This document shows, piece after piece, positions 1,063 through 17,915 of a stretch of DNA of 25,419 nt. The position numbers and the translations under genes were made by a program. The notes beneath the pieces were generated by a model. It saw nothing but the letters and a program-made list of their open reading frames with translations, made no database searches and was not told where the DNA came from. The first letter of the stretch is position 1. Every line of letters starts with the position of its first letter. Source of the stretch: a virus; IMG/VR virus record IMGVR_UViG_3300025769_000762, positions 1-25,419 of that record. The stretch is one strand, 5' to 3'.

Positions 1063-1078
1063 TGTGTATTTTCAAACC

Positions 1079-1086: not shown

Positions 1087-1091
1087 GTTAT

Positions 1092-2632: not shown

Positions 2633-2635
2633 ACA

Positions 2636-5646: not shown

Positions 5647-6536
5647 TTGTATTTGACACCGACAGACGGCTTACTAAAGAATTTACAATTGCGTTTGCTC
5701 GCGGCGTGATAAGAAACAGACACACAACAAACGGCAAATGGGAAGTAAAGCATGTGCCTATAGTGCAATACCTACTGTCAGGAATACCCGCTAACACAGA
5801 TGCAGTAGCAACACTGGGTATACTTCGTGGCACTGGACTAATGCTAAAAGAAGCAAAGCAGCAAGGTATAGACTATTACTACATGGATCATGCTTATTAC
5901 AATCCAGGTTATAGTGGTAAAGGCTGGATGCGCATTACAAAAAACGGACATGCATGCACTACACTAAAACAATGTGATGCAGATGCTTACAATGGATTTG
6001 CAGCAAGCCAGGATAAAAATATAATGCACCCGTGGACAGGCCCAAAGGGCGATAAGATAATTGTTTGTCCTCCTACACATGCAGTGCAATGGTTCTTTGA
6101 TGAATACAATTGGGAAAACTCAATAGTACAACAGTTAAAAAATATACTACCTACAGATCAACATGATCGTATTGTAGTAAGACCCAAGCCCAAAGAACCT
6201 ATAGTTGATGAACGGGGCAACTTACTTGAACTTAGAATAAATCCACAGACAGGAAGTTTGGCAGAAGATTTAGAACAAGCCTGTTGCGTTATTGCATACA
6301 ACAGTATGGTAGCACTGGAAGCAACACTTAAAGGTATTCCAGTTATCACCAGCGAGCATAGTTGTTGTACACATGTTAGTTTTGATTTAGAGGATTTAGC
6401 AACACCAGAAGTGTTTAGCAGCGAGCCTTTAAATAGACAAGCAGTGCTGAACTGGTTAGCATATAATCAATGGAAGATGGCAAATCTAGAAGATGGTACT
6501 GCTTGGTCTAGATTGCAAGAGAACTACAATGGGTAA
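5634..6536 (+). CDS. KpsC/KpsS-like glycosyltransferase homologue, tandem copy 2
   Basis: The protein has 300 residues and starts at ATG 5634 inside the end of copy 1. Key blocks are 'GIDYYYMDHAYYNPGY' (78-93), 'KIIVCPPTHAVQWFF' (141-155, start of the C-terminal Rossmann half), 'IVVRPKPKEP' (180-189), 'CVIAYNSMVALEATLKGIPVI' (218-238) and the tail 'NRQAVLNWLAYNQWKMANLEDGTAW'. The order matches capsule-type GT-B enzymes: a substrate-facing N-terminal half, then donor binding. It is the most complete example of the four-member family in this window. It lies between its two paralogues with overlapping ends, so all three are probably co-translated and may add successive residues to one glycan. 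Confidence 0.6.
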   Translation: MPNLIVFDTDRRLTKEFTIAFARGVIRNRHTTNGKWEVKHVPIVQYLLSGIPANTDAVATLGILRGTGLMLKEAKQQGIDYYYMDHAYYNPGYSGKGWMRITKNGHACTTLKQCDADAYNGFAASQDKNIMHPWTGPKGDKIIVCPPTHAVQWFFDEYNWENSIVQQLKNILPTDQHDRIVVRPKPKEPIVDERGNLLELRINPQTGSLAEDLEQACCVIAYNSMVALEATLKGIPVITSEHSCCTHVSFDLEDLATPEVFSSEPLNRQAVLNWLAYNQWKMANLEDGTAWSRLQENYNG

Positions 6537-7569
6537 AACAACTGCAGAAAAACATAAAAAAAAATGGAGCGATTACCACAGTGACAGTGATGTTCCTATT
6601 GCAGAAATTGCAACACAGCCTCTAATAAAGCGACAAATGATTGCGTTCAGGCATCAAATGACTGACGACTTTCCTATAGAGTTTAATATTCCAGGCTGGG
6701 AAATAATTGATTTTGCAGACAGGCACAAATATAAATCACAATACTATTTTCAAATAAATGTAGATAAACCCAGCAATAGAACTAAAGAAGGCGAAGTAAT
6801 AGATCCAGTATATAATTATATCAAAGAAACTGGCAAGCCCTATCTAGTATGCGAACTAAGTTGTTTTAGACAAAATAGTTATCAGGGAGATCCTAACAAT
6901 TGGTATTATACACTAGGATGGTTTCATTTTTTAAGACAGGGCTTATTTCGTAACAATAATAGTCCCAGCGATAGATGGAACCAAATTCAAAAGCATCAGA
7001 ATATAGAAATACTGCCATGGCGAACACAAGTTCGCGATAATGATTATGCACTTGTATGTTTACAAAAGGTAAATGACAGTACACTTATTCCTATGCACGA
7101 AACACATGGGAAATATAAGTGGTGGATAGAAGTTGCGTGTAAGCAAATTAGAAATATATATCCCAAATTGCCTATAATAATTAGACCTCACTTGAGAACT
7201 AAACTAACAAACTATAAGTATTCGCTACACAACATCCAAAATGTACATTTAAGTAAAACATGGGAAGATCGTACCTATCACGAAGGCGGCGCAGGCTTGC
7301 AATCAGATTTAGATGGCGCAAGATTTGTTGTAGGATATAACAGTAATGTGCTAACGCAAAGTGTATTACAAGGCATTCCTACTGTATGTTGGGATATTCG
7401 TAGCGCAGCAAGTCCAGTTTGCCTGGATCCGAGTCAACTAAAAAACATAGAACAAGCACATAACATTGATCGTGAACAATGGTTATACGATTTAGGTTAC
7501 ACCCAATGGACTCGTGCTGAGATTAGCAATGGGCATGCATGGAATCATTTAAAGCAGTATGAGTTTTAA
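6529..7569 (+). CDS. KpsC/KpsS-like glycosyltransferase homologue, tandem copy 3
   Basis: The protein has 346 residues from ATG 6529, which overlaps the stop of copy 2; an upstream in-frame non-ATG start at 6493 is less likely. A lysine-rich N-terminus (MGKTTAEKHKKKW) precedes 'GKPYLVCELSCFRQNS' (102-117), matching 'NKPVIVIEVGGLIRNT' of the minus-strand paralogue at 208-1062. Donor-half blocks are 'PIIIRPHLR' (215-223), 'RFVVGYNSNVLTQSVLQGIPTV' (265-286) and the tail 'DREQWLYDLGYTQWTRAEISNGHAW'. It is the last gene of the plus-strand run and its stop overlaps that of the convergent gene at 7566. Sugar specificity cannot be read. Confidence 0.6.
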   Translation: MGKTTAEKHKKKWSDYHSDSDVPIAEIATQPLIKRQMIAFRHQMTDDFPIEFNIPGWEIIDFADRHKYKSQYYFQINVDKPSNRTKEGEVIDPVYNYIKETGKPYLVCELSCFRQNSYQGDPNNWYYTLGWFHFLRQGLFRNNNSPSDRWNQIQKHQNIEILPWRTQVRDNDYALVCLQKVNDSTLIPMHETHGKYKWWIEVACKQIRNIYPKLPIIIRPHLRTKLTNYKYSLHNIQNVHLSKTWEDRTYHEGGAGLQSDLDGARFVVGYNSNVLTQSVLQGIPTVCWDIRSAASPVCLDPSQLKNIEQAHNIDREQWLYDLGYTQWTRAEISNGHAWNHLKQYEF

Positions 7570-8255
7570 CTACTGTATAAGTTAATAACTTCTTTCTTCC
7601 ACACATGATCATATTCACAATCACGCATGTTCTCAAACCAAGGACCGCCTTCAGTATAGTGTAGCACATTGGGCTTACCGTCCTGAGGTTCTTTGTAGTG
7701 CCCCACTAACCAGTTCCACTCAGGGCCTAGTTCACCAATCTCACTGTCATCGCACCATTCAAAGCGGTGTAAGTATGCACCTGTTTGAGTATTAACAGTT
7801 TCCAAGTCCAAGTTCTTACAACTAGGATGTTCACAGTTAAACACCATAAAGCTCGACCAGTTCTTACGAGGATACTGCAACTGCATTTGTCCATCCATTT
7901 TTAATCCCTCTGGAGGATTGTATTCATGCTTTACTACCCAAACTGCTTTGCTATTATCCTTAAATCCATTGTTAAACAAATGATATGCATCAGTCAAAAA
8001 CACCATATCACTGTCACAAAACACTGCCAATCCTTTGTAGTTGTTTAGGTGCGGAATAAGAAAGCGTGTAAAAGTAAACTCTGTACTGGCAAGTTTATCT
8101 ACTTCACGCCAGTAAAGTTTTTGCTCTCTGAGTTCATTTTGTTTAAGAGGAACTACATTAATAAACTCTCGGTATGTGCGTCTTAGTATTGAATGTTCGC
8201 ATACTTGATATGCAATATCTTCACGGCTGTCCCAGCCAACATATATATTGTTCAT
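7566..8255 (-). CDS. DxD glycosyltransferase (family 8-like)
   Basis: The protein has 229 residues from ATG 8255-8253; the in-frame TTG one codon upstream is not needed. It begins 'NNIYVGWDSREDIAYQVCEHSI' (2-23), the first strand of GT-A folds such as family 8. 'TFTRFLIPHLNNYKGLAVFCDSDMVFL' follows, with FCDSDMV (79-85) as the DxD metal site, then 'WSSFMVFNCEHPSC' and 'LHYTEGGPWF', where the histidine is the usual C-terminal metal ligand of this fold. The motif set is almost complete, so the enzyme is probably active. It is encoded opposite to its neighbours and is divergent from the cytidylyltransferase-cupin gene. Confidence 0.7.
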   Translation of the reverse strand: MNNIYVGWDSREDIAYQVCEHSILRRTYREFINVVPLKQNELREQKLYWREVDKLASTEFTFTRFLIPHLNNYKGLAVFCDSDMVFLTDAYHLFNNGFKDNSKAVWVVKHEYNPPEGLKMDGQMQLQYPRKNWSSFMVFNCEHPSCKNLDLETVNTQTGAYLHRFEWCDDSEIGELGPEWNWLVGHYKEPQDGKPNVLHYTEGGPWFENMRDCEYDHVWKKEVINLYSS

Positions 8256-8273
8256 CAAAGGGTTTTCCTGTAT

Positions 8274-8281
8274 AATAAATA
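8274..8281 (+). promoter_or_regulatory. Possible late-like promoter element (AATAAATA)
   Basis: The 65-base divergent gap (8256-8320) contains AATAAATA on the plus strand, one base from the T4 late consensus, about 40 bases before the start at 8321. A similar GATAAATA lies on the minus strand at 8309-8302, in the direction of the gene starting at 8255. The region is very A+T rich, so chance occurrence is possible. Confidence 0.3.
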
Positions 8282-8320
8282 GAATAATAAAGTGCGTATA
8301 TTATTTATCTGAGGTAATCA

Positions 8321-9115
8321 ATGGAAAAAATAGTTTTAGTAACAGGCGGCTTTGATCCATTGCACAGCGGACACATTGCCTACTTTGAAGCAGCAAAACA
8401 ATTAGGCGATGAACTTTGGGTTGGACTTAATAGTGACGCTTGGCTTGCAAATAAAAAAGGGCGTAGTTTTATGCCAGTGCGAGAACGTGCAAGTATTGTT
8501 AAAAACTTGCGTATGGTTGATCGTGTTGTTACAGACTTTGACGACAGTGATGGCAGTGCCAGTGGAGCAATACACAAAGCATTTACACTGGGTGCAGAAC
8601 ACATTGTATTTGCTAACGGCGGTGACAGAGGCACAGGCAATACTCCGGAGCAGCACAACTTCAGGCACACACCAAACATTGAATTTGTGTTTGGCGTAGG
8701 CGGCGAAGATAAAAAGAATAGTAGCAGTTGGATCCTCAAAGAATGGCAAGCACCTAAAATAGAACGAGAATGGGGACACTATAGGGAACTATACAGCGGC
8801 GATGGGTTTAGTGTTAAAGAACTTGTTATTGCTCCGCACAGTAAACTTAGTATGCAACGGCATGAGCATCGTAGCGAAACTTGGAACTTGGTAAGCGGAC
8901 AAGCATATGTGCGTATGAATAGTGTAAGCACTCCTGGTTTAGATCCCAGTGACGGCGCACTAAGACGTACACTAAGCACACAAAATCCTATTGATATTCC
9001 AAAGCGTGTGTGGCATCAGGGCGTTAATGAAAGCGACGAGCCGGCGCATATTGTTGAGATTTGGAAAGGTAAGAGCGAATTACTATCTGAAGATGATATA
9101 GAACGCTGGGACTAA
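8321..9115 (+). CDS. Cytidylyltransferase-like / type II mannose-6-phosphate isomerase-like cupin fusion
   Basis: The protein has 264 residues and a good ribosome-binding site (GAGGT). Residues 1-140 are a nucleotidyltransferase of the TagD/HldE type: 'VTGGFDPLHSGHIAYFEAA' with HSGH (15-18), 'VGLNSDAWLANKKGRSFMP', 'VFANGGDRG' (97-104) and 'SSSWILK' (134-140). Residues 148-264 are a cupin like the C-terminus of type II mannose-6-phosphate isomerases: 'EREWGHYRELYSGDGFSVKELVIAPHSKLSMQRHEHRSETW' with probable ligands H181, H183 and E186, then 'IPKRVWHQGV' (H232), ending 'LLSEDDIERWD'. The fusion should activate a sugar or polyol phosphate and perhaps isomerise or epimerise a sugar, feeding the transferases around it. 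The exact substrate is inference. Confidence 0.78.
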   Translation: MEKIVLVTGGFDPLHSGHIAYFEAAKQLGDELWVGLNSDAWLANKKGRSFMPVRERASIVKNLRMVDRVVTDFDDSDGSASGAIHKAFTLGAEHIVFANGGDRGTGNTPEQHNFRHTPNIEFVFGVGGEDKKNSSSWILKEWQAPKIEREWGHYRELYSGDGFSVKELVIAPHSKLSMQRHEHRSETWNLVSGQAYVRMNSVSTPGLDPSDGALRRTLSTQNPIDIPKRVWHQGVNESDEPAHIVEIWKGKSELLSEDDIERWD

Positions 9116-9116: not shown

Positions 9117-9842
9117 ATGAAAGAAGTAGCAGTTGTGCTTGCAGGTGACAAGTTTGATCCTGCACTGCACATAAAACAAATATACACGAATCTACATGCA
9201 AACTGCACTGACTTTAGACTAACTGTTTTTACTGATAGAGATGACATTGGATTGCCTGGCGTAAGAATTATCAAGTTGCCAGACTGGAACTTGCATGGAC
9301 CGCGACAGTTATGGTGGTACAAAGTGTATATGTTTAGTCCTCAGACTTGGACCGGTCCTGTGTTTTACATGGATCTTGATACTATTATTGTAAACAACAT
9401 AGACAAGTTTTGGGACCATGAAGTAGGCAAGTTTTGTATTTGTCAGGACTTTAATAGACAGTTTATCGAAGATTATCCCATAAGTAATAGCAGTGTTATG
9501 CGCTTTGACAGCGAAAAACATCACAAACTATACACAGATTTTACAGCAAACCCACAGAAAATTATGCGACAGCACAGAGGTGATCAGGACTATGTTACTG
9601 CTTATCTCAAAGAGCGCACGGATAAAGCATGGTGGCCCAAGCAGTGGGCTATGAGTTACAAGTGGGAAATACTACACGGCGGCGCAAAAACAGGCGGGCC
9701 TGGCATAAAACATCCAAATGATTATTATTATCCAGAGTACGACACTGTGCTACCAGATAGATGTAGCATAGTAGTATTTCACGGAAAACCTGACCCTTAT
9801 GACACATTATTTGGTCAAAAAAGGTTGACAGTTTTCAAATAG
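9117..9842 (+). CDS. DxD glycosyltransferase-like protein
   Basis: The protein has 241 residues. 'RLTVFTDRDDI' and 'VRIIKLPDW' form the first nucleotide-binding strands. 'GPRQLWWYKVYMFSPQTWTGPVFYMDLDTIIVNNID' contains the lysine before the DxD and YMDLDTI (84-90), as in GT-A enzymes related to family 8. 'GDQDYVTAYL' and a C-terminal 'IVVFHGKPDPYD' (histidine metal ligand) complete the pattern, so the enzyme looks intact. It follows the cytidylyltransferase-cupin gene by one base. Its last codons contain the TTGACA box of the first early cassette (9825-9830), so the coding end and the next promoter overlap. Confidence 0.68.
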   Translation: MKEVAVVLAGDKFDPALHIKQIYTNLHANCTDFRLTVFTDRDDIGLPGVRIIKLPDWNLHGPRQLWWYKVYMFSPQTWTGPVFYMDLDTIIVNNIDKFWDHEVGKFCICQDFNRQFIEDYPISNSSVMRFDSEKHHKLYTDFTANPQKIMRQHRGDQDYVTAYLKERTDKAWWPKQWAMSYKWEILHGGAKTGGPGIKHPNDYYYPEYDTVLPDRCSIVVFHGKPDPYDTLFGQKRLTVFK

Positions 9843-9880
9843 GTGCTATATTAATATAGTAAGTTGAAATTGAGGAGAGA
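9825..9880 (+). promoter_or_regulatory. Early promoter/leader cassette A
   Basis: TTGACA 9825-9830, 16-base spacer, TATATT 9847-9852, AGTAAGTTG from 9858, and ribosome-binding site GAGGAGAGA 9872-9880, three bases before ATG 9884. The -35 box lies within the last codons of the glycosyltransferase. It is one of six copies of the same layout in the window. Confidence 0.85.
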
Positions 9881-9883
9881 ACA

Positions 9884-10234
9884 ATGCAACAGCAAATTGA
9901 AAAATTGATCCAAGATATTGTTAACGATTATGCTAACTGGCAGAGACTTTGTGCTGCACGGAACGCAGACACTTGCAACAAAGTGCAAAAAGATATGTTT
10001 GATCGTTTTAAGTCGCGCATCTCTTTTAAAGAAGGTAAAAAGTATATCAAAATCTTTACTGAAGGCGGAAGCGTTTGGGGATTTGTTGTTAACACTGATA
10101 AAGATAATAAGTTTCGCAAAGGTGACATCCTTAAAGCAGCAGGATGGAACGCTCCTGCTCGCAATTCAGCACGTGGTAACATTGTTGATGGCGGCTATTC
10201 AATCCAGTGGACAGGTCCACATTACTTAAAATAG
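9884..10234 (+). CDS. Small phage protein of unknown function
   Basis: The protein has 116 residues and is preceded by early cassette A. I do not recognise a family. The N-terminal 40 residues are predicted helical and mixed-charge ('QQQIEKLIQDIVNDYANWQRLC'). The rest is a beta-rich, lysine- and glycine-containing part ('GKKYIKIFTEGGSVWGFVVNTDKDNKFRKGDILKAAGW...', ending 'GGYSIQWTGPHYLK'). The KGDILKAAGW stretch looks like a compact fold with a conserved turn. No membrane segment or signal peptide is present. Its place at the start of the early region suggests an early host-takeover or accessory role. Confidence 0.72.
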   Translation: MQQQIEKLIQDIVNDYANWQRLCAARNADTCNKVQKDMFDRFKSRISFKEGKKYIKIFTEGGSVWGFVVNTDKDNKFRKGDILKAAGWNAPARNSARGNIVDGGYSIQWTGPHYLK

Positions 10235-10243
10235 GAGACTACA

Positions 10244-10441
10244 ATGATGGCAATGGATAAAAAAGAGCAAGCAGCATATGATGCAGCAATGGCTGAATAT
10301 TTCGCTAAAGGTGGTAAAGTTACCACTTGTCCTGTTAATGAGCGCACAGAAGGTTTGGTAACGAACATTTGGAAGCGCGGCCCAGGTCGTCCAACCAAAG
10401 AGCAAGCAGAAAAAGCTGCCAAAGCAGATAGTGACGAATAA
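10244..10441 (+). CDS. Small protein with AT-hook-like GRP motif
   Basis: The protein has 65 residues; the ribosome-binding site AGGAG lies nine bases before ATG 10244. It is lysine- and alanine-rich with charged helices, and carries 'WKRGPGRPTKEQAEK', whose R-G-P-GRP core with flanking basic residues resembles an AT-hook that binds the minor groove of A+T-rich DNA. The short acidic end (KADSDE) is typical of small nucleoid-like proteins. DNA binding is inference from this one motif. It lies downstream of the first cassette gene by nine bases and is followed directly by cassette B. Confidence 0.7.
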   Translation: MMAMDKKEQAAYDAAMAEYFAKGGKVTTCPVNERTEGLVTNIWKRGPGRPTKEQAEKAAKADSDE

Positions 10442-10445
10442 AAGG

Positions 10446-10500
10446 TTGACATAATCTGTATCTGTGCTATGTTTAATAGTAAGTTGTTTTTGAGGAGAGA
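10446..10500 (+). promoter_or_regulatory. Early promoter/leader cassette B
   Basis: TTGACA 10446-10451, 16-base spacer, TATGTT 10468-10473, AGTAAGTTG from 10478, ribosome-binding site GAGGAGAGA 10492-10500 (followed by another G), ATG 10504. It starts four bases after the stop codon of the preceding gene. Confidence 0.88.
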
Positions 10501-10503
10501 GAT

Positions 10504-10878
10504 ATGCCCCAGATTTTTTCAGTTTATCAGATCGTTATTGACAAAGACCTTAGTGATCTTATCAACAAAGAAGGTCACAATTGTCATGTAAAGAGCAAAG
10601 CTCGTATGCAAGCAATGCTGGAAGGCGATGTGCGTCTTGGTGTAATGCATGATTGTTACACTAAGGTAGCAGAAGTTGTTGCTGATGATCTGGAGCATGT
10701 GTTCGAAGTTGGAAACATTGGTCCTGAGGATCGTATTACACGATTTGACAAGATGAACAGCATCAGTGTTGGCGACATCATTTCAGATGCAGATGGCGTC
10801 TGTAGTGTGGTTAACAATGTTGGATTTACTCCACTTGCACCGTCATTTCATAAAATGGTATTGAAGGAGGCAGCATAA
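10504..10878 (+). CDS. Small phage protein of unknown function
   Basis: The protein has 124 residues, driven by cassette B. I do not assign a family. It starts 'MPQIFSVYQIVIDKDLSDLINKEGHN', has a central 'LEHVFEVGNIGPEDRITRFDKMNSISVGDII' and ends in a beta-type 'VGFTPLAPSFHKMVL'. The segment 'MNSISVGDIISDADGVCSVVNNVGF' has the rhythm of a short SH3-like or 'DUF' barrel seen in many small phage proteins, but no functional residues can be named. It is soluble with no signal or membrane segment. Its stop codon shares a base with the next gene (TAATG). Confidence 0.75.
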   Translation: MPQIFSVYQIVIDKDLSDLINKEGHNCHVKSKARMQAMLEGDVRLGVMHDCYTKVAEVVADDLEHVFEVGNIGPEDRITRFDKMNSISVGDIISDADGVCSVVNNVGFTPLAPSFHKMVLKEAA

Positions 10879-10961
10879 TGTTTTTTGAAATCGTATTAGT
10901 TGCTTTAGCAGTTTCGGTTGGATTCCTTCCATTGTATATTGTATTAGCGGAGGTTTTGTAA
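10878..10961 (+). CDS. 27-residue membrane miniprotein
   Basis: The reading frame encodes 27 residues, MFFEIVLVALAVSVGFLPLY followed by IVLAEVL, almost entirely one hydrophobic helix. A strong AAGGAGG site lies in the end of the upstream gene, six to eight bases before ATG 10878, and the start and stop overlap both neighbours (TAATG on each side). The close coupling and good ribosome-binding site support a real gene. It would sit in the inner membrane. No family is recognised. Confidence 0.6.
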   Translation: MFFEIVLVALAVSVGFLPLYIVLAEVL

Positions 10962-11131
10962 TGTTGTATGAAGTTTATTTGGTAAATCAACGTTATACCT
11001 GTGGTGCATATAAAACCTTGGAGCAGGCTATTAAAATGGCTCGCAAAACAGGGTTCCAGTGCAACATCTTTCGTAGCAACAATCCCTTTAAGATTGTTAA
11101 ACATGTTTGCCCAATTGGAGGTACACGATGA
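10961..11131 (+). CDS. 56-residue unknown protein
   Basis: The frame encodes 56 residues, from ATG 10961 (ribosome-binding site GCGGAGG, about seven bases upstream, inside the previous miniprotein) to TGA 11129-11131. It is basic, with three cysteines (residues 14, 34 and 50) and 'YKTLEQAIKMARKTGFQCNIFR' as a likely helix and strand. The arrangement resembles a small alpha/beta fold that holds a helix against a short sheet. No function can be assigned. It overlaps the next start by four bases (ATGA). Confidence 0.65.
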   Translation: MLYEVYLVNQRYTCGAYKTLEQAIKMARKTGFQCNIFRSNNPFKIVKHVCPIGGTR

Positions 11132-11253
11132 TTAAGTTTTATTCGTTAGCCGCAGTCGGAGCAGCCGCAGCCGCCGCCGCGCAGTCCTATGTGATGCTGG
11201 GTTTGTCTTTGGCTATTGTATTCTTGCTTATGTATAGGGAGCGTGATCAATAA
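11128..11253 (+). CDS. 41-residue alanine-rich membrane miniprotein
   Basis: The frame encodes 41 residues: a short N-terminus, an alanine run (AVGAAAAAAAQ), then the helix 'YVMLGLSLAIVFLLMYRERDQ' with a positive cytoplasmic end. A ribosome-binding site GGAGG lies six bases before ATG 11128. It overlaps both neighbours (ATGA and TAATG). The GCC/GCA-rich alanine stretch is the most G+C-rich spot in this early region. It is probably an inner-membrane protein of unknown function. Confidence 0.6.
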   Translation: MIKFYSLAAVGAAAAAAAQSYVMLGLSLAIVFLLMYRERDQ

Positions 11254-11444
11254 TGGAAATCAAACTAACAGACGCTGGCACATTTGAGTTGCTGTATGAT
11301 AAAATGGATATGATAATCCATATTGCGGCATTTGCTTTTAGTGCGGCTATTTTTGTAATGATCATAAGCGCCGCTTTTAAACTAGGCTGGAAACTTTGGC
11401 CCTGGGTATTTGGGCTAGGACTACTAGCGTTTTTGTTAGTATGA
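11253..11444 (+). CDS. Small two-helix membrane protein
   Basis: The protein has 63 residues. Two hydrophobic segments are visible, 'MIIHIAAFAFSAAIFVMIISAAF' and 'LWPWVFGLGLLAFLLV', separated by a basic turn (KLGWK). The N-terminal 18 residues are soluble and acidic. The start overlaps the preceding stop (TAATG) and the stop overlaps the next start (ATGA). It is probably an inner-membrane protein expressed with the neighbouring miniproteins; function unknown. Confidence 0.65.
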   Translation: MEIKLTDAGTFELLYDKMDMIIHIAAFAFSAAIFVMIISAAFKLGWKLWPWVFGLGLLAFLLV

Positions 11445-11605
11445 GGCGAGGCAAGGCAAAAGATCCCGCTGAATATATTCATATACGAATGAAGCAGTTG
11501 TATGAAGAAGCGCATAAATGTCATGACGCACATGACAAACAATGGTACAACAGATGCGCAGAAGAATTGCATTGGGTACTTAAACTAATCAAAAAGGAAG
11601 ATTAA
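11441..11605 (+). CDS. 54-residue basic helical protein
   Basis: From ATG 11441 the protein has 54 residues; I prefer this start because of the four-base overlap with the preceding stop. A basic N-terminus (MRRGKAKD) leads into a long amphipathic helix 'AEYIHIRMKQLYEEAHKCHDAHDKQWYNRCAEELHWVLKLIKKED' with two cysteines and four histidines. The histidine/cysteine pattern could bind metal, but it does not match a known finger. Function unknown. Confidence 0.6.
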   Translation: MRRGKAKDPAEYIHIRMKQLYEEAHKCHDAHDKQWYNRCAEELHWVLKLIKKED

Positions 11606-11606
11606 G

Positions 11607-11795
11607 ATGGAACCAGTTGATCCAAGTCGCAAGCATTTTTACATTAGTCTTGTTAAAAGTGGGTTACGCCTAATAGGCTGTTATCTACTTTGGAGTGCAG
11701 GTTATGTAATGGATGACATTGCAGGCATATTTGTAATGTACACAGCATATGCACTAGGTGCTGCTGAAGTATTGGGCATTGTAGAGGAACTCTAA
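11607..11795 (+). CDS. Small two-helix membrane protein
   Basis: The protein has 62 residues and a ribosome-binding site AAGGA nine bases before ATG 11607. After a short soluble start (MEPVDPSRKHFYISLVKSG) come 'LRLIGCYLLWSAGYVM' and 'IAGIFVMYTAYALGAAEVLGI', two likely membrane helices. The stop shares a base with the next start (TAATG). No family is recognised. Confidence 0.65.
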   Translation: MEPVDPSRKHFYISLVKSGLRLIGCYLLWSAGYVMDDIAGIFVMYTAYALGAAEVLGIVEEL

Positions 11796-12010
11796 TGGGA
11801 CCTTATAGCGAAGAACAGCAAACACGCAGAGCAGAACTTATTGCTAGTGTGCTTGTAAATAATAGTAACAGTCCAGAAGTAAAACGCATCTGGAAAAAAC
11901 ATCTTGCTAACCTTGCAACAACAGAAGAACAGTATAACGCTCGTGTTGCATCATTGTATGGAGATAAAAAATGGAACCAATCTATTGGTACGCTATTGCC
12001 TACGCTGTAG
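11795..12010 (+). CDS. 71-residue unknown helical protein
   Basis: The protein has 71 residues, soluble and helical, beginning 'MGPYSEEQQTRRAELIASVLVNNSNSPEVKRIWKKHLANLATTEEQYNARVASLYGD'. The ribosome-binding site is GAGG in the end of the preceding gene. The basic patch 'VKRIWKKHL' suggests nucleic-acid or protein binding but is not diagnostic. It overlaps the next gene by 40 bases, an unusually long overlap for this region. Confidence 0.55.
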   Translation: MGPYSEEQQTRRAELIASVLVNNSNSPEVKRIWKKHLANLATTEEQYNARVASLYGDKKWNQSIGTLLPTL

Positions 12011-12195
12011 GCACAGGAATGGGATATTACTTTGGTCGCACATCTGTTGACCAAGTTGTTTCTGCAACAATTGCAACACTAATTGAATCAGGCTATGTAA
12101 AAACTCGTGAGGATGCAAATGGTGATCTTGATCTTGTTAAACTTACTTTTGAGGAGCGGTTAGATGACACTGCCACCAAAACAGAAGATTGTTAG
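11971..12195 (+). CDS. 74-residue membrane-anchored protein
   Basis: The protein has 74 residues with ribosome-binding site GGAG eight bases before ATG 11971. The N-terminal helix 'YWYAIAYAVGTGMGYYFGR' has GxxxG-type spacing typical of membrane helix packing. An acidic soluble tail follows: 'TSVDQVVSATIATLIESGYVKTREDANGDLDLVKLTFEERLDDTATKTEDC'. The 'LIESGYVKTREDANGDLDLVKL' part looks like a small winged or beta-hairpin element. Function unknown. Confidence 0.6.
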   Translation: MEPIYWYAIAYAVGTGMGYYFGRTSVDQVVSATIATLIESGYVKTREDANGDLDLVKLTFEERLDDTATKTEDC

Positions 12196-12406
12196 GTTTG
12201 GTCCGGACTATAAACTAAGCATTGTAGACGAAGTTAATCATACGGACAAGTTTGAACTTGCTGTATTCTACAAAGAGAACATGGTATCTATGCCAGGCAT
12301 TACTGATAACGGCGATACTGTAACACGTTTTAGAACAGTCGCCGACATCCAATTGATTATGAAAAAGATGTATAGTATTACAGGAGAAATGCCTGTAAAC
12401 GGTTGA
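12164..12406 (+). CDS. 80-residue unknown protein
   Basis: The protein has 80 residues, with ribosome-binding site GAGGAG about eight bases before ATG 12164. It is soluble, with alternating beta strands ('QKIVRFGPDYKLSIVDEVNHTDKFELAVFYKENMVSMPGI') and a C-terminal helix 'VADIQLIMKKMYSITGEM'. No family is recognised. Its TGA stop lies inside the TTGACA box of cassette C, so the gene end and the next promoter share bases. Confidence 0.65.
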   Translation: MTLPPKQKIVRFGPDYKLSIVDEVNHTDKFELAVFYKENMVSMPGITDNGDTVTRFRTVADIQLIMKKMYSITGEMPVNG

Positions 12407-12454
12407 CATATTCTGTATCCATGCTATGTTTAATAGTAAGTTGTTTTTAAGGAG
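12403..12454 (+). promoter_or_regulatory. Early promoter/leader cassette C
   Basis: TTGACA 12403-12408, 16-base spacer, TATGTT 12425-12430, AGTAAGTTG from 12435, ribosome-binding site AAGGAG 12449-12454. It is identical to cassette B through the -10 and AGTAAGTTG region, but its ribosome-binding site is AAGGAGATGG and lacks the GGAGAGA element of the other five. The -35 box contains the TGA of the preceding gene. Confidence 0.85.
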
Positions 12455-12460
12455 ATGGAA

Positions 12461-12661
12461 ATGGGAATGTCAAGTTATGTTTTCGACAGTGAAGAAAAGA
12501 TGTTCGATGTTATTGAACAAGCAATTGGAAATTGTGAACATCTAACTGATGTAATGGCTGAGGCTGTCAAGCAAAAGAATCTTGTACCGCATTGGAGTAC
12601 GGCAGAAATCGAAGATTGTTGCAGTGAAGCCTGGGAAGAATATTGGGCAAGCAAAATATAG
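12461..12661 (+). CDS. 66-residue acidic unknown protein
   Basis: I start the gene at ATG 12461, which is six bases from the AAGGAG site; the ATG at 12455 would abut it directly. The protein is acidic and helical, with four cysteines: 'NCEHLTDVMAEAVKQKNLVPHWSTAEIEDCCSEAWEEYWASK'. No recognised motif. An acidic early phage protein of this size could be a DNA-mimic or an inhibitor, but nothing in the sequence proves it. Confidence 0.65.
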   Translation: MGMSSYVFDSEEKMFDVIEQAIGNCEHLTDVMAEAVKQKNLVPHWSTAEIEDCCSEAWEEYWASKI

Positions 12662-12671
12662 GGAGGCAAAA

Positions 12672-12941
12672 ATGAAATGGATGTTGTTATTCAATCTTGC
12701 TATTGTGACTCCAGATGGTGGTGCACAGGATGAGATTATCAATGTGTACAGTAAACATTTTGACTCACAAGCCAAGTGTGAACAGTTTTTAGCAAACTAT
12801 AAAGGTTTAATTCACGGGCGTGGTCTTAAAAGTTTTCAGAGCATGTTTAAAGAAGGCTATACTGTAACACTTAAAAATGTAACATGTGATCAGCCTTACA
12901 AATCAGAACCACTAGAATTTAGTGGCACTGGCAGCAAATAA
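12672..12941 (+). CDS. 89-residue unknown protein
   Basis: I choose ATG 12672, preceded by GGGAGG five bases upstream, rather than the in-frame non-ATG start at 12582. The protein begins 'MKWMLLFNLAIVTPDGGAQDEIINVYSKHFDSQAKCEQFLANYKG'; the hydrophobic start could be a strand rather than a signal peptide, because 'TPDGGAQDE' offers no clear cleavage site. Two cysteines occur in the mature part (CEQF, VTCDQ). A small alpha/beta fold is likely. Function unknown. It ends just before cassette D. Confidence 0.65.
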   Translation: MKWMLLFNLAIVTPDGGAQDEIINVYSKHFDSQAKCEQFLANYKGLIHGRGLKSFQSMFKEGYTVTLKNVTCDQPYKSEPLEFSGTGSK

Positions 12942-12944
12942 AGG

Positions 12945-12999
12945 TTGACACATCCTATATATGTGTTATTGTTAATAGTAAGTTAAATGTTTGGAGAGA
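12945..12999 (+). promoter_or_regulatory. Early promoter/leader cassette D
   Basis: TTGACA 12945-12950, 16-base spacer, TATTGT 12967-12972, AGTAAGTT from 12977, ribosome-binding site GGAGAGA 12993-12999, ATG 13005. The spacing places the upstream ATG at 12987 before the ribosome-binding site, so it is not the start. Confidence 0.85.
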
Positions 13000-13004
13000 A
13001 ACAA

Positions 13005-13325
13005 ATGAACTATTCACCAGAACTTCAGAACGCATTAGATGCAATGCGTAAGATTACTGATACATCAGATATGCATGTATTGGCTCAGCAGTACAATTCA
13101 CATGTAACATTCCTTGGCAAGCGCAAAGGCGCTGGCATTGTAAAAGGCGACAAGATTGCTTGGGAGTATGGTGGATTGCAAAAGGTTGGTATTGTAACCA
13201 AAGTTAATCGCAAGACCATTGAAGTACAGGACTATGGTAACACACCATTTGGTTCAACACGCACACGCTTGGACAAGTCAATGATCCTTGGCAAGGTTGC
13301 TGAATCAACTGAGACATTTGCATAA
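13005..13325 (+). CDS. 106-residue unknown protein with SH3/KOW-like segment
   Basis: From ATG 13005 the protein has 106 residues. The N-terminal half is helical ('SPELQNALDAMRKITDTSDMHVLAQQYNSHVTFLGKRKG'). The C-terminal half, 'GIVKGDKIAWEYGGLQKVGIVTKVNRKTIEVQDYG', has the strand-turn rhythm of KOW/SH3-like barrels that bind nucleic acid. The family is not named here. It is followed by the SWIM-like gene with a one-base overlap, so the two are probably co-translated and may act on nucleic acid together. Confidence 0.7.
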   Translation: MNYSPELQNALDAMRKITDTSDMHVLAQQYNSHVTFLGKRKGAGIVKGDKIAWEYGGLQKVGIVTKVNRKTIEVQDYGNTPFGSTRTRLDKSMILGKVAESTETFA

Positions 13326-13519
13326 TGGCACACGCCAGTGAAATTGTAAACACAAAAGGACACCCATTTGTGGGTGTTCAGTGGCCAGTACTGGGTAGCA
13401 AGGGCGATACTTATACAGTTGAAATGACCGATTACGGATTTGATTGTAACTGTGTTGCTTATCGTAAATGTAAACATATTAAGAGTGTAGAAGAACGTTT
13501 TTGTGAAACATTGGACTAA
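13325..13519 (+). CDS. SWIM zinc-finger miniprotein
   Basis: The protein has 64 residues. 'YTVEMTDYGFDCNCVAYRKCKHIKSVEERF' matches the SWIM zinc-binding pattern CxC...CxH: C41-x-C43, five residues, C49-x-H51, preceded by the usual beta strands ending in an aromatic residue. In larger proteins SWIM domains bind DNA or protein partners; here the domain is nearly the whole protein. Its 5' end overlaps the preceding stop (TAATG) and its end overlaps the next frame. A role in nucleic-acid binding is inference from the fold. Confidence 0.72.
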   Translation: MAHASEIVNTKGHPFVGVQWPVLGSKGDTYTVEMTDYGFDCNCVAYRKCKHIKSVEERFCETLD

Positions 13520-14507
13520 CATTGTCAGAGAAGTTTTCCCCAGGGCAGAAGTATTAGACGCTGCTCTGGCGTATCCTATTACGGACTTTGGTTGGGATGT
13601 AAATGTTCCTCGTAGCACAACTTTTTGCAATTTTGAGGATCCGCAGTATCGTTTAGTAATTAATCTGCAGGACATGTTAACTCGTTATGAAGATCACAAA
13701 GTCCCAAGCGAACTTACTAAACTGCATCAGCATTTTGAAAAAAACAATTTTCCCATGGATCGTATTATTGTATTGATCTGGCCCTTGGGTATTAAAAAAG
13801 ATTGGCCCAAGGACAGTTTTCATTTAATTGAATTTAGCAGTCATCAATATGAAACTTGGTGCAGTTATAAAAGCGCAGAAGATGTATTGCGTGAAGCGTT
13901 TAGTAGAGAATATAAAGACTTTGAATACAACTTTGTTTGTCCACAGCGTATCTACAAGCCACATCGTGCAGCATTAGACAGTATGCTAGATATTGGTAAT
14001 GTAAGTTTGCAAACCAAGGGTAAAGAACTTGCATATCCTAATTTTAGTGTAGAAGAGTACGACAACACTTATGATAATCTCGCTAACTTACTTGCGATGC
14101 GTAAGAACTATAACACTGCATTGTTTACTATTGTTAGCGAAAGTCAGTATAGTGAAGAATTTGGAATCATTACTGAAAAAACATTTAATGCTATTGTAGC
14201 AGGACATCCGTTTTTAATGTGTGCGCACCGGCATGCATTGGAGCATATTCGTCATTATGGATTTCAAACATACAATTACATTTTTGATGAAGCATATGAC
14301 GATTTAGATAATGTTGTTCGTATGAAGGACATGGTGAATAGCAATTGGCACTTTACAAAAGAACGCATGTGTGCAGTTGAGATGCAGAAAATATTTGAGG
14401 ATCTGCAAGGATTGATTAACTACAACAGAGATTACTTTTTTGATCAGTTTGGTGACCAAATGATTGACGAACTTAGAATGGATTTGTTAGACATGTGGGG
14501 TAAATGA
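13503..14507 (+). CDS. Glycosyltransferase-like protein (exostosin/GT10-like tail)
   Basis: The frame opens with GTG 13503 (334 residues), overlapping the SWIM gene; the exact start is uncertain, since no ATG occurs before about residue 58 (13674). The recognisable part is C-terminal: 'FTIVSESQYSEEFGIITEKTFNAIVAGHPFLMCAHRHALEHIRHYGFQTYNYIFDEAYDDLDN', with the 'T-E-K-x-x-x-a-x-x-x-x-h-P-x-x' donor-binding signature seen in exostosin and GT10-like enzymes and in many marine phage proteins, followed by 'LR-x-x-GF-x-T-x-...-DE-x-YD'. It shares this whole block with 14799-15737. Sugar specificity is unknown. Confidence 0.6.
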   Translation: MKHWTNIVREVFPRAEVLDAALAYPITDFGWDVNVPRSTTFCNFEDPQYRLVINLQDMLTRYEDHKVPSELTKLHQHFEKNNFPMDRIIVLIWPLGIKKDWPKDSFHLIEFSSHQYETWCSYKSAEDVLREAFSREYKDFEYNFVCPQRIYKPHRAALDSMLDIGNVSLQTKGKELAYPNFSVEEYDNTYDNLANLLAMRKNYNTALFTIVSESQYSEEFGIITEKTFNAIVAGHPFLMCAHRHALEHIRHYGFQTYNYIFDEAYDDLDNVVRMKDMVNSNWHFTKERMCAVEMQKIFEDLQGLINYNRDYFFDQFGDQMIDELRMDLLDMWGK

Positions 14508-14812
14508 TGGCACTGCCTAGACAGAAAAAGAATTGGGATCAAGATGCTGCATTGTTGTTTATGGAAAACCTAAACATGATGGTGCCCTACTATTTGATGG
14601 CTAGTTATGCTTATTACAAACAAGACGATCCTATTTTTAGCGATGCATTCTTTGATAACATGGGCAAGACAATGCTGGAACGCTGGGACGATATTGAACA
14701 CTGGCACAAAGAATACATTAACAAAGGTGACCTAGAAGCAGGCACATTCCTGGGAGAATATCCTACTAGAGTCGAAGGCGCATTAAGAAGTTTGAGAAAT
14801 GACAAAGTATGA
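14504..14812 (+). CDS. Unknown protein, about 102 residues
   Basis: It starts at ATG 14504, overlapping the preceding stop by four bases; a second ATG follows at once. The protein is soluble, helical and rich in aromatic residues: 'DQDAALLFMENLNMMVPYYLMASYAYYKQDDPIFSDAFFDNMGKTMLERWDDIEHWHKEYINKGDLEAGTFLG'. No motif is recognised. It lies between two paralogous glycosyltransferase-like genes and overlaps both, so it may be a partner of one of them. Confidence 0.7.
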   Translation: MMALPRQKKNWDQDAALLFMENLNMMVPYYLMASYAYYKQDDPIFSDAFFDNMGKTMLERWDDIEHWHKEYINKGDLEAGTFLGEYPTRVEGALRSLRNDKV

Positions 14813-15737
14813 TTTAGACAATCCTCCTCCTGAAGGACTGAATCAAATGCCGAAACAACCACCTGGTCGGATTAAAACAGATCTTACTATTAATCACAGC
14901 GTTGAAACAGGATGGCCTGTTAGGAAATTTAACTTACCAGCACATATATATCTTCAAGATGACCTTACATACAAGTCGGGAAAAATATTAGAACTCGAGA
15001 AATATATAGATTATTATGGAGATAACATTGATCAGGTAACTTTTTATGTTTGGCATAATCATCTGAGTACATTTTATCCATCATTAAATTTTGTATATTT
15101 TCCAAAATTTCATTACAATCATTTTCTAGAATACGTCAATAATCATGTGCCGGATAATTTTATATTCAATGAGCAAAAAGAATTTGTTTTCTTGTGTTTA
15201 AATATGAATCGCAGGCCGCACAGAGACAAAACTGTGCGACTGCTAGAAAATATGCCTAGTAGATTAATAAGTTATAAGTCTATGGGATTAGAAATACCTA
15301 ATCATAAAGATATGACACACACAGAATATAATACACAAGATAGTATGCACGAAGCAAACATTATAAATCTAACACAACTACAGCCTGTATATAATCGTTG
15401 CCAGTTCAGTGTTGTGACCGAAACTAGATATATCTTACCTTATGATTTTATAACAGAAAAAACAATACAGTGCTTTGTTGCGCTACATCCTGCACTTTAT
15501 GTAAGTAACAAAGGGCATGTTCAGGAACTTAGAAACTATGGATTTGATGTATTTGATGATGTGTTTGACCATAGCTACGACACACTGGAAGATGATAAAC
15601 GAATAGAACATATGGTAGAAAGTAATAGAGCAGTTCTTGAAAAAGGAATACCTAATTATAGTGACCTTAAAGATAGATTATTATCAAACAGACGGCATTA
15701 CTTGGATCCTAAGTGTCCGCTATATGAGGTAAAATAA
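14799..15737 (+). CDS. Glycosyltransferase-like protein, paralogue of 13503-14507
   Basis: The protein has 312 residues. Near residue 125 is 'EFVFLCLNMNRRPHRDKTVRLLENMP', a strand followed by 'N-x-R-x-H-R', then 'QFSVVTETRYILPYDFITEKTIQCFVALHPALYVSNKGHVQELRNYGFDVFDDVFDHSYDTLEDDKRIEHMV', the same TEK donor block as in the paralogue. By eye it is richer in A+T than its neighbours, which may mark a recently acquired gene. The start overlaps the unknown gene by 14 bases. Likely a sugar transferase that modifies a surface or virion component. Confidence 0.62.
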   Translation: MTKYDLDNPPPEGLNQMPKQPPGRIKTDLTINHSVETGWPVRKFNLPAHIYLQDDLTYKSGKILELEKYIDYYGDNIDQVTFYVWHNHLSTFYPSLNFVYFPKFHYNHFLEYVNNHVPDNFIFNEQKEFVFLCLNMNRRPHRDKTVRLLENMPSRLISYKSMGLEIPNHKDMTHTEYNTQDSMHEANIINLTQLQPVYNRCQFSVVTETRYILPYDFITEKTIQCFVALHPALYVSNKGHVQELRNYGFDVFDDVFDHSYDTLEDDKRIEHMVESNRAVLEKGIPNYSDLKDRLLSNRRHYLDPKCPLYEVK

Positions 15738-15914
15738 ATGGATGAAGCACAAGAACTTAGCCAACGATTATCAGTTGTGCTAACTGAGATTCGTGATATA
15801 ATGGAAAAACGCAAAGAACGTGTAGAACAATTGCGCGAACAAATTTCATTTATTGAAAATGAAAATGAAGATTTAGAACGAAAAATTAATGAATTAATTC
15901 GGGATGCTTTTTAA
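15738..15914 (+). CDS. 58-residue coiled-coil protein
   Basis: The frame runs from ATG 15738 (ribosome-binding site GAGGT about eight bases upstream) to TAA 15912-15914, which overlaps the next ATG (TAATG). The product is almost wholly heptad-like: it starts MDEAQELSQRLSVVLTEIRD and continues IMEKRKERVEQLREQISFIE, then ENEDLERKINELIRDAF. Charged e/g positions and leucine, valine and isoleucine at a/d suggest a dimeric coiled coil. Function unknown; it may be a partner of the exonuclease that follows. Confidence 0.75.
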   Translation: MDEAQELSQRLSVVLTEIRDIMEKRKERVEQLREQISFIENENEDLERKINELIRDAF

Positions 15915-16453
15915 TGACTATACATGCAATGATTGATTTAGAAACATTGGACACAGGTGTTAACAGTGTAATACTAACCTGTGGTGCTATTAAGTTTGAT
16001 CCGCTTAGTGATGCAGATCCATATGCAGAAATGTATCACCGTATTAGTGTAGATGACCAAACTGAACTAGGACGAACTGTCGACGACGGCACTATTGCCT
16101 GGTGGGGAACACAGCCAGAAGAAATTTGGCAAGAAGCATTAGGTGACGAAGATCGTGTTGGTGTAGATGAGTTTATCCGTGATTTGCAACGTTGGGTAGT
16201 AGGCGTGGATGTTATTTGGGCTCAAGGCTATGGCTTTGATATTACTATTATTGAAACACTGCTAACACAAAAAGGACATAACAAGCCTTGGAACTTTTGG
16301 AACCTGCGTGATAGCAGAACACTGTTTCAACTTATGCCAAAAGATCCTCGTAAAGCAATGAACTTTGCGGCACACAATGCATTGGAAGATTGCAGAGCGC
16401 AAGCAAAATGTGTTCAGTATTGTTATAGAGAATTAGGCATCGAAAAAGGTTGA
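15914..16453 (+). CDS. 3'-5' exonuclease, DexA/RNase T-like (DEDDh)
   Basis: The protein has 179 residues. Motif Exo I is 'HAMIDLETLDTG' with D8 and E10. Exo II is 'WAQGYGFDITIIETLL' with D109. Exo III is 'FAAHNALEDCRAQAKCV' with H154 and D159, the DEDDh type. The segment 'TIAWWGTQP' is typical of the T4 DexA-like 3'-5' exonuclease family found in T4-like phages. It would degrade DNA 3' ends, for host DNA breakdown or nucleotide recycling. The TGA stop is inside the TTGACA of cassette E. Confidence 0.85.
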   Translation: MTIHAMIDLETLDTGVNSVILTCGAIKFDPLSDADPYAEMYHRISVDDQTELGRTVDDGTIAWWGTQPEEIWQEALGDEDRVGVDEFIRDLQRWVVGVDVIWAQGYGFDITIIETLLTQKGHNKPWNFWNLRDSRTLFQLMPKDPRKAMNFAAHNALEDCRAQAKCVQYCYRELGIEKG

Positions 16454-16504
16454 CAGAACTTCTATTCGTGTTAATATGTATAGTAAGTTGATTTTGAGGA
16501 GAGA
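16450..16504 (+). promoter_or_regulatory. Early promoter/leader cassette E
   Basis: TTGACA 16450-16455, 16-base spacer, TAATAT 16472-16477, AGTAAGTTG from 16482, ribosome-binding site GAGGAGAGA 16496-16504, ATG 16509. The -35 box shares its TGA with the exonuclease stop codon. Confidence 0.88.
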
Positions 16505-16508
16505 CAAA

Positions 16509-16709
16509 ATGTCACATAAAGTTACAATTTATCGTTATGAAGATGATGGCGCAAAGATTAAAGTTCACATCACTGACAAATTTGATTGTGAAAAAGAAGC
16601 AGAAAGATTTGCATATGCTGATCCTTTTGTTCTAGCAGAACATCAATTTGACATGTATAAAGAAGATAACATGCTGTGTGGTTCTGGATATTATGCTGAA
16701 ATACGATAA
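16509..16709 (+). CDS. 66-residue unknown protein
   Basis: I start the gene at ATG 16509, four bases after the cassette E ribosome-binding site; the in-frame ATG at 16476 falls inside the promoter. The protein begins 'MSHKVTIYRYEDDGAKIKVHITDKFDCEKEAERFAYADPFVLAEHQFDMYKEDNMLCGSGYYAEIR', with two beta strands, a helix and a final strand. Two cysteines. No family is recognised. It is flanked by cassettes on both sides, so it is a single-gene transcription unit or a relay in a longer one. Confidence 0.7.
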   Translation: MSHKVTIYRYEDDGAKIKVHITDKFDCEKEAERFAYADPFVLAEHQFDMYKEDNMLCGSGYYAEIR

Positions 16710-16714
16710 AAAGG

Positions 16715-16780
16715 TTGACATACATACTACAGATGTTATTATATAAGAGTAAGTTAAACAAATGATGTTGGAGAGAGAGA
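16715..16780 (+). promoter_or_regulatory. Early promoter/leader cassette F
   Basis: TTGACA 16715-16720, 16-base spacer, TATTAT 16737-16742, AGTAAGTT from 16748, ribosome-binding site GGAGAGAGAGA 16770-16780, ATG 16782. Its leader is about ten bases longer than in cassettes A, B and E. Confidence 0.85.
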
Positions 16781-16781
16781 C

Positions 16782-17816
16782 ATGTCATATGTTCTAGTAA
16801 AAAGCGGAGAATACAGGAACCGCACAGTAAAGAATACTGTTTTCCCTGTTATTAAGAATTTCCAGTTTGGCGCAAACGGCGGATACATCACAGTTGATGG
16901 GTCAAGTGTGTTTGGTGCAGAATTTTCAAAAGTTCGCATTAAAACAACTCAGGATCAACTTGATTTTGTCGGACAAGATGTTTTCAATAAACAAGAAAAC
17001 GTTAAGGTCGAAGTTGCTGCCTCTTCTACATTTACAAAAGAGCAAGACGATCAGCGTATGAAAGAAATAGGCAATCGTTTTGAGATACTGGATCAGATGA
17101 CCAAGTCGCTTGTAAAAAGTGATATTCGTGCGTTAATTGTTACTGGACCTCCAGGTGTTGGTAAGAGTTATGGTGTAGAAGAAGAACTTACTAAGAGTTC
17201 ACTTTTCGGAGATATGACAAATCAACGGCGTAAATACGAAGTAGTAAAAGGTGCAATGACTGCACTAGGTCTTTACGCTAAACTGTATGAATACTCAGAC
17301 AAAGGCAACGTGCTTGTGTTTGATGATTGTGATAGCGTATTGATGGATGACCTCGCACTAAACATTCTCAAGGCTGCACTTGATAGCGGCAAGAAGCGGA
17401 TGATTTACTGGAATGCAGAGAGTAATAAACTGCGTAGCGAAGGCATCCCAGATAAGTTTGAATTTAAAGGCAGTGCTTGCTTTATTACAAACATTAAATT
17501 TGAGAATGTGCGTAGCAAGAAACTGCAGGATCACCTAGAAGCATTGCAGTCACGCTGTCACTACTTGGATCTTACACTGGACACTATGCGTGATAAGATC
17601 CTGCGTGTAAAGCAGATTGCAAAAGTTGGTGACCTGTTTAAGGATTACAGTTTCGATCTTGAAGAAGAAAAAGAGATCATCGACTTTATTGCTGATAACT
17701 GTAACAAGTTCCGTGAGGTAAGTTTGCGGATGGCACTTAAAGTTGCCGATCTTAAAAACATCTCACCAAACAACTGGCGTGCGCTTGCAGAAAGCACTTG
17801 TATGAAACGAGTGTAA
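16782..17816 (+). CDS. AAA-type ATPase
   Basis: The protein has 344 residues. An N-terminal part of about 110 residues (basic beta-rich, then helical 'EQDDQRMKEIGNRFEILDQMTKSLVKSDI') precedes a single ATPase domain. Walker A is GPPGVGKS (122-129), Walker B is 'NVLVFDDCDSVL' with DDCD at 181-184, and a sensor-like 'SACFITNIKF' and arginine 'ALQSRCHYLDL' follow. Proteins of this architecture occur in many T4-like marine phages near replication genes; the role may be remodelling of a replication or packaging complex, and it is not the gp44 clamp-loader ATPase. It is driven by cassette F, and the structured gap 17817-17927 follows it. Confidence 0.8.
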   Translation: MSYVLVKSGEYRNRTVKNTVFPVIKNFQFGANGGYITVDGSSVFGAEFSKVRIKTTQDQLDFVGQDVFNKQENVKVEVAASSTFTKEQDDQRMKEIGNRFEILDQMTKSLVKSDIRALIVTGPPGVGKSYGVEEELTKSSLFGDMTNQRRKYEVVKGAMTALGLYAKLYEYSDKGNVLVFDDCDSVLMDDLALNILKAALDSGKKRMIYWNAESNKLRSEGIPDKFEFKGSACFITNIKFENVRSKKLQDHLEALQSRCHYLDLTLDTMRDKILRVKQIAKVGDLFKDYSFDLEEEKEIIDFIADNCNKFREVSLRMALKVADLKNISPNNWRALAESTCMKRV

Positions 17817-17840: not shown

Positions 17841-17915
17841 GGGCCGCGGCTCCTCTCTCCTCTCTCCTCCAATCGCGGTCCTGGGTGGGTAGTTTAGAAA
17901 TAGACTACCCACTCA
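17841..17915 (+). ncRNA. Candidate structured anti-Shine-Dalgarno RNA (two abutting hairpins)
   Basis: Hairpin 1: GGGCCGCG 17841-17848 pairs with CGCGGTCC 17874-17881 (8 bp, one G-U), exposing a 25-base loop made almost only of C and T. In the loop, CTCCTCTCT is repeated, and TCTCTCC occurs twice. Hairpin 2 starts at the next base: TGGGTGGGTAGT 17882-17893 with ACTACCCACTCA 17904-17915 (12 bp, one G-U). No T-run follows, so this is not a normal terminator. The loop is complementary to the GGAGAGA ribosome-binding sites of five early cassettes, by up to ten bases for cassette B. No promoter is visible directly upstream, so it would be made as part of the ATPase transcript's 3' end or processed from it. 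Expression is unproven. Confidence 0.5.

Follow-up and report, generated by a model that had tools for sequence, protein, structure and literature searches.

The window analyzed here, the whole of a 25,419-nucleotide (nt) stretch of viral DNA (IMG/VR record IMGVR_UViG_3300025769_000762, positions 1 to 25,419), is, judging by its sequence, a fragment of a marine T4-type jumbo phage of the RaK2-like group, and it carries six copies of a promoter unit, each lying in front of a gene. We consider it likely that these units are strong T4-like early promoters for the RNA polymerase of the host, acting with its housekeeping sigma factor, and that they are used as gene-plus-promoter modules. For uncultivated marine T4-type jumbo phages, which form a large group, they would provide an early-type regulon that can be read. 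A previous sequence-only reading of the window had proposed that six promoter and leader cassettes form a coordinated early regulon and could recombine to shuffle small genes; altogether, its interpretation is partly supported by the results presented below, the two of its checks that sequence comparison allows both coming out in its favor.

The six sites lie exactly where that reading had placed them (Table 1). A motif search of the window retrieves all of them on the + strand, with no match on the reverse strand and none to a backwards control. Each unit consists of TTGACA, a 16-base spacer ending in TGn, a TANNNT −10 box, four or five bases, AGTAAGTT, a purine-rich ribosome-binding site (RBS) and the start codon. 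The spacer, which had been described as fixed, is indeed 16 bases long in the six copies, and the TG before the −10 box is a feature that had been missed. In all six, 10–11 of the 12 hexamer bases match the consensus, and no other sigma-70-like site between 9000 and 18000 ranks above any of them. The full motif, present six times in the window, was found only three times in total over 400 dinucleotide shuffles (at most once per shuffle). The claim that most units are placed straight after the stop codon of the preceding gene holds for copies 2, 4 and 6, where the upstream stop ends 3–5 nt before TTGACA; in copies 3 and 5, the TGA stop of the upstream gene falls within TTGACA itself, and the end of the gene upstream of copy 1 lies within the spacer. 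Since each unit overlaps or adjoins the stop codon before it and extends to the start codon after it, gene and promoter make up a compact module. None of the six promoters is directly preceded by a terminator-like site on the + strand. The idea of a structured leader was discarded, as folding of the six leaders is no better than that of shuffled sequences (z −0.72 to 0.44). Note that AGTAAGTT also occurs on the − strand of the window, at 6219, 12140, 13711, 14085 and 17185; four of these five copies sit within + strand genes, and they probably reflect codon usage, although they exceed the number expected per strand (about 0.75).

Table 1. Promoter units of the window, the genes around them and associated features (ORF, open reading frame; aa, amino acids)
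Feature	Position	Strand	Description
Copy 1	9819..9886	+	TTGACA 9825–9830; TGC; −10 TATATT 9847–9852; AGTAAGTT 9858–9865; RBS; ATG 9884
ORF upstream of copy 1	9117–9842		glycosyltransferase-like; ends inside spacer
Gene behind copy 1	9884..10234	+	116 aa; weak DUF7717, phrog_5014
Copy 2	10440..10506	+	TTGACA 10446–10451; −10 TATGTT 10468–10473; AGTAAGTT 10478–10485; ATG 10504; stop TAA 4 nt before TTGACA
Gene behind copy 2	10504..10878	+	124 aa; no function assigned
Copy 3	12397..12463	+	TTGACA 12403–12408; −10 TATGTT 12425–12430; AGTAAGTT 12435–12442; ATG 12455 or 12461
ORF upstream of copy 3	12164–12406		stop TGA within TTGACA of copy 3
Gene behind copy 3	12461..12661	+	about 67 aa; no function assigned
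Copy 4	12939..13007	+	TTGACA 12945–12950; −10 TATTGT 12967–12972; AGTAAGTT 12977–12984; ATG 13005; upstream stop 3 nt before TTGACA
Gene behind copy 4	13005..13325	+	106 aa; no function assigned
Copy 5 (P5)	16444..16511	+	TTGACA 16450–16455; −10 TAATAT 16472–16477; AGTAAGTT 16482–16489; ATG 16509
ORF upstream of copy 5	15914–16453		exonuclease-like; stop TGA within TTGACA of copy 5
Gene behind copy 5	16509..16709	+	66 aa
Presence/absence unit	16450..16714	+	P5 and 66-aa gene 16509–16709, between exonuclease-like gene and P6; missing in 4/4 relatives compared
Copy 6 (P6)	16708..16784	+	TTGACA 16715–16720; −10 TATTAT 16737–16742; AGTAAGTT 16748–16755; ATG 16782; upstream stop 5 nt before TTGACA
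Gene behind copy 6	16782..17816	+	344-aa P-loop protein; phrog_1250, weakly clamp-loader-like
Terminator-like hairpin	17882..17915	+	strong; 3' of last gene (16782–17816)

Viral contigs and bacterial and archaeal genomes were then scanned with the pattern GGTTGACA-N26/27-AGTAAGTT, from which the −10 box was left out, so that a TGnTA at the right place provides an independent check of each match. At least 118 stretches match in viral contigs, and 77 in the genomes of 84,980 bacterial and archaeal species; TGnTA is correctly placed in 130 of 139 viral matches (among the matches listed) versus 5 of the 77 genome matches. A bacterial host promoter class was rejected because the full unit is nearly absent from these genomes. 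The single convincing genome match (L145) lies on a 335-kb contig that is binned with a Neomarinimicrobiota genome and contains 12 core copies; this contig is probably a misbinned jumbo phage. The geometry of the unit was assessed on 90 distinct viral units, among the matches listed, which display TGnTA and have 250 nt upstream. Their spacer is 16 bases long without exception, the gap between the −10 box and AGTAAGTT is 5 bases in 64 units and 4 in 26, and, in the 80 units where an RBS and a start codon were found, 21–37 nt separate this codon from the A of AGTAAGTT. An A-rich run is present just 5' of GGTTGACA in the 90 units, and nothing is conserved beyond about 10 bases upstream, which is the limit of the stretch examined.

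Using the core alone (GTTGAC-N14-TGnTAnnnT, with a reversed-pattern control), we looked for copies in larger genomes of relatives, as the sequence-only reading had suggested, and found them. The 306-kb G001 contains 17 core copies, all on the − strand (control, 1), and the 316-kb G024 contains 15 (control, 2); GG precedes the core in 14 of the latter, 13 of which lie on the + strand. Eight copies are present in the 131-kb G025, all on the − strand (control, 0), and six in G003, all on the + strand (control, 1), as compared to six in the window (control, 0). An exact-motif search of G024 gave no match, this genome using another start region. No seventh core site is detected in the window at ≤1 mismatch, so that the statement that genes outside the 9825–16780 region do not use the unit is correct within the window; it does not extend to the relatives, as one copy of G003 (at 3432) lies about 39 kb from the other five and the copies of G001 are spread over about 180 kb. 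Stretches free of copies surround the capsid gene: in G001, the copy-free stretch at 180–307 kb contains this gene (232–233 kb), and no GG-bearing copy is found at 73–173 kb in G024, whose capsid gene is at 144 kb. The location of these regions fits a non-structural regulon, a point that concerns place and is no test of timing. As to a contrast with late promoters, TATAAATA counts equaled those of the reversed control, and neither promoter type was seen by eye in the 400 nt upstream of the capsid genes.

The association between the promoter and particular genes was measured in relatives fetched by protein, excluding loci selected with the motif and dropping upstream regions shorter than 70 nt, matches starting after residue 4 and identical regions. 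Of 122 distinct regions upstream of homologues of the five traceable promoter-bearing genes, 68 have a core promoter within 90 nt of the gene, compared to 6 of 277 for homologues of other window genes and 183 of 20,000 random 90-mers. The sixth gene (16509; genes are designated by the position of their first nucleotide) contributes nothing to these counts, as no relative of its product was found in viral contigs. A comparison of gene order, which had also been proposed, shows that the promoter-bearing genes change neighbors while keeping a promoter. The neighbor found in the window is kept in 4 of 20 promoter-bearing upstream regions of 9884, 7 of 14 of 10504 and none of 27 of 16782. More specifically, 10504 precedes 9884 in L074, 10504 is directly followed by a promoter and 13005 in L080, and 9884 is directly followed by a promoter and 16782 in L325. 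Homologues of 13005 and 10504, each with a promoter, are 83 kb apart in G024 versus 2.5 kb in the window, and those of 12461 and 16782, again each with a promoter, are 147 kb apart in G001 versus 4.3 kb.

One site bears on the proposed modular gene-plus-promoter layout in its strict form, that is, presence or absence of a whole unit. In four relatives, a single promoter joins the homologue of the exonuclease-like ORF directly to that of 16782, where the window has P5, gene 16509 and P6. Alignment scores obtained with the window flanks joined at TTGACA are 420, 447, 271 and 280, versus 315, 302, 183 and 172 for the intact stretch, thus favoring the joined form in all four. As in the window, the exonuclease-like gene of these relatives appears, by eye, to stop at the TGA inside TTGACA. 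On this evidence, P5 together with gene 16509 behaves as a clean presence/absence insert, which the window would have gained or the relatives lost. From such junctions, we infer that the repeats recombine and thereby shuffle genes, as had been suggested. In a further locus (L300, in G043), the promoter preceding the 10504 homologue combines a core of the copy-1 type with a leader of the copy-2 type, behind a shortened upstream gene; this one case may reflect an exchange within the promoter.

To describe the start region, we collected 105 distinct core promoters from loci fetched by protein, again leaving out motif-selected loci. AGTT is found within 16 bases past the −10 box in 81 of them, most commonly at a distance of 8 or 9 bases; 100 bases further on, it is found in 19 of 148 control stretches, which were not de-duplicated. 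The forms taken by these 81 regions are AGTAAGTT (34), ATAGTT (28), ATAAGTT (13), ACAGTTA (3) and other GTAAGTT (3): the −35/−10 core is constant and the start region differs by lineage around AGTT. When only sites beginning with GGTTGAC are considered (14 of 15 in G024), the likeness of start regions is 0.652 within genomes versus 0.482 between genomes, and that of spacers 0.453 versus 0.379; neither difference was reached in any of 1000 label shuffles. Different forms can also coexist in one genome: L296 carries ATAGTTA, ATAAGTT and AGTAAGTT before three genes, and G001 carries both ATAAGTT and AGTAAGTT. In our reading, the start region would be initially transcribed and conserved, with forms that differ between lineages; a dedicated trans-acting factor may recognize it. 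Besides, in other marine phages, (A)GTAAGTT was observed upstream of 9884 homologues behind a −35/−10 that mostly lacks TG (L354, L357, L371, L375 and L391–L393); the spacer of these loci often contains a palindrome like GTAAGACGTCTTAC, perhaps an operator.

In the scheme that we favor, host RNA polymerase with its housekeeping sigma factor would bind the −35 (TTGACA after A-rich GG), TGn and −10 (TGYTATNNT) elements held at the fixed 16-base spacing, and transcription would begin within (A)GTAAGTT. The resulting short unstructured leader (about 20–37 nt), with its strong RBS, would lead to the translation of one small protein or a short operon. Each unit would probably fire early and drive one small gene or short gene run, within a regulon that occupies one strand across the non-structural regions of this marine T4-type jumbo phage. 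Related phages would gain, lose and move gene-plus-promoter modules, probably via recombination in the shared promoter sequence. The early reading by host polymerase, the RNA start and the recombination are the conjectural parts of the scheme; the anatomy of the unit, its phage specificity, its genome-wide copies in relatives, its linkage to genes whose neighbors change and the one case of presence or absence can be read directly in the sequences. Several observations weigh against this scheme. It was the presence of promoters in the window that decided which genes entered the linkage set, and contigs that are related do not count as independent. A core promoter is missing from 54 of the 122 regions of these genes, mostly from those of distant 9884 homologues (37 of 57 without it). 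In G024, homologues of 9884 and 16782, placed after the 13005 homologue, have no core promoter directly upstream, and the same is true of the 10504 and 13005 homologues in G001. Finally, the five core copies of the 204-kb G026 (control, 1) are not convincing, and seven of eight named phages have at most two core matches.

The early promoters of T4 are the closest known counterpart of the unit. According to the part of PMC2988021 available to us, they combine UP, −35, TGn and −10 elements with further consensus. The units found here resemble them in associating a strong −35, TGn and −10 with conserved sequence that goes beyond what sigma-70 contacts define, and perhaps in their A-rich upstream stretch; the phage, too, is of the T4 type. 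They depart from what that text describes by their fixed 16-base spacer, by GGTTGACA, by a start region of 8 bases (AGTAAGTT) that varies with lineage, and in that many of them sit in or at the preceding stop codon. Alternatively, the start region and its variants could be the binding site of a phage-encoded repressor, activator or RNA-binding protein that switches the whole set off or on, in which case the promoters would not simply be constitutive early ones. In both length and conservation, the start region exceeds what sigma-70 requires; it lies at a near-fixed distance from the −10 box, and has a form that is more alike within than between genomes. Yet single genomes mix forms, no palindrome was noticed in AGTAAGTT, and, since within-genome likeness is slightly raised for the spacer too, shared descent of the copies explains part of the start-region likeness; we regard this alternative as somewhat unlikely. 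A more specific and rather unlikely version is that the signature proper to each lineage (AGTAAGTT, ATAAGTT, ATAGTTA or ACAGTTAG) is a phage-specific initial-transcribed code that modules adopt on entering a genome, where it would be read by a co-evolving phage factor or serve as a 5' RNA tag. Instead of immediate-early promoters, the units might also be middle promoters that need a phage activator, like MotA/AsiA in T4. They do precede a replication-like P-loop gene and adjoin UvsW helicase and exonuclease genes; however, they keep a consensus TTGACA, while in T4 middle promoters a MotA box takes the place of the −35 element (PMC2988021, from the same part of the text). We hold this possibility to be distinctly improbable.

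The copies could alternatively have converged on the best host promoter sequence, with no shared cassette history, the genes simply keeping their own upstream regions by descent. The core does look like that of strong sigma-70 promoters, and the Sinorhizobium jumbo phage Phosso carries 33 cores without AGTAAGTT. Convergence nevertheless accounts poorly for the near absence of the full unit from bacterial genomes, for the presence or absence of P5 and its gene as one piece, and for L300, where copy 2 has a core of the copy-1 type yet its own leader; it seems doubtful to us. Promoter early plus stem-loop (PeSL) cassettes were reportedly described by Arbiol in 2010 and by Comeau in 2014. In these T4 cassettes, as related second-hand in passages of PMC4503421, an early promoter joined to a stem-loop mediates shuffling. 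The units could be such recombination cassettes: repeated early-type promoters are associated here too with shuffling of small genes, by a mechanism that we deduce, in a T4-type phage two of whose relatives have Gp23-type capsid genes. However, the six copies have neither stem-loop nor terminator, and specifically no + strand terminator-like stem-loop lies directly upstream of any of them. For want of stem-loops, identity with PeSL cassettes, as defined in that second-hand account, was rejected, and the idea is highly improbable. The SAS/ESAS repeats of Cluster K mycobacteriophages and Cluster EF Microbacterium phages provide another parallel: in the available portions of PMC3203893 and PMC7302621, they are repeats in one orientation before the start codons of non-structural genes, absent from hosts, SAS being a 13-bp GGGATAGGAGCCC-type ribosome-binding-site repeat 3–7 bp from the start codon. 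The units share with them a non-structural distribution, a position before start codons, a single orientation, a near absence from bacterial genomes and retention by the same gene families, but are promoters that lie 21–37 nt from the start codon. Identity with SAS was rejected, the GGGATAGGAGCCC-type consensus giving no match at ≤2 mismatches. No description of this promoter family was found in the literature searched, as far as the accessible texts go; nor do the accessible parts of papers on Sinorhizobium and Agrobacterium jumbo phages mention promoters.

Phosso (PV764938; loci L449, L452 and L454–L457) has the same core type as the window, GGTTGAC-N14-TGnTAnnnT, with 24 of its 33 cores on the + strand and 9 on the − strand (reversed control, 1). 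Unlike the window units, none of the six Phosso sites read downstream has AGTAAGTT. By eye, CCTRTGYTA spans the −10 box in 20 of the 33 cores, and two of the six sites display operator-like inverted repeats between spacer and leader. Among the other named phages, Atu_ph07 has two core matches and PA5oct, SCTP-2, HTVC008M, Munch, T4 and XaC1 none; Pelagibacter phage Mosig, searched besides these eight, has one.

If the early promoter assignment is right, one pattern would be sufficient to locate promoters, their strand and candidate early genes in assembled genomes. The window would also offer a test case for phages that acquire small genes ready for expression, the promoter being included in the inserted unit, and the conserved start region poses a question that is directly testable by mutation.

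Among named phages, PA5oct, Phosso and Atu_ph07 are the nearest relatives of the window. UvsW and the genes that follow match these and other jumbo phages, with 34–55% identity for the best match of each, and gene order from UvsW on is common to the window and PA5oct. Megablast of the region against named phages gave no match, and BLAST of a 78-base cassette against them gave unrelated weak matches only. A T4 Gp23-type capsid gene is present in three of six records searched (G001, G024 and G031); the window itself holds no capsid gene. Finally, a run of glycosyltransferase-, methyltransferase- and nucleotidyltransferase-like ORFs (208–9115), an unusual cargo for a phage, adjoins the replication genes.

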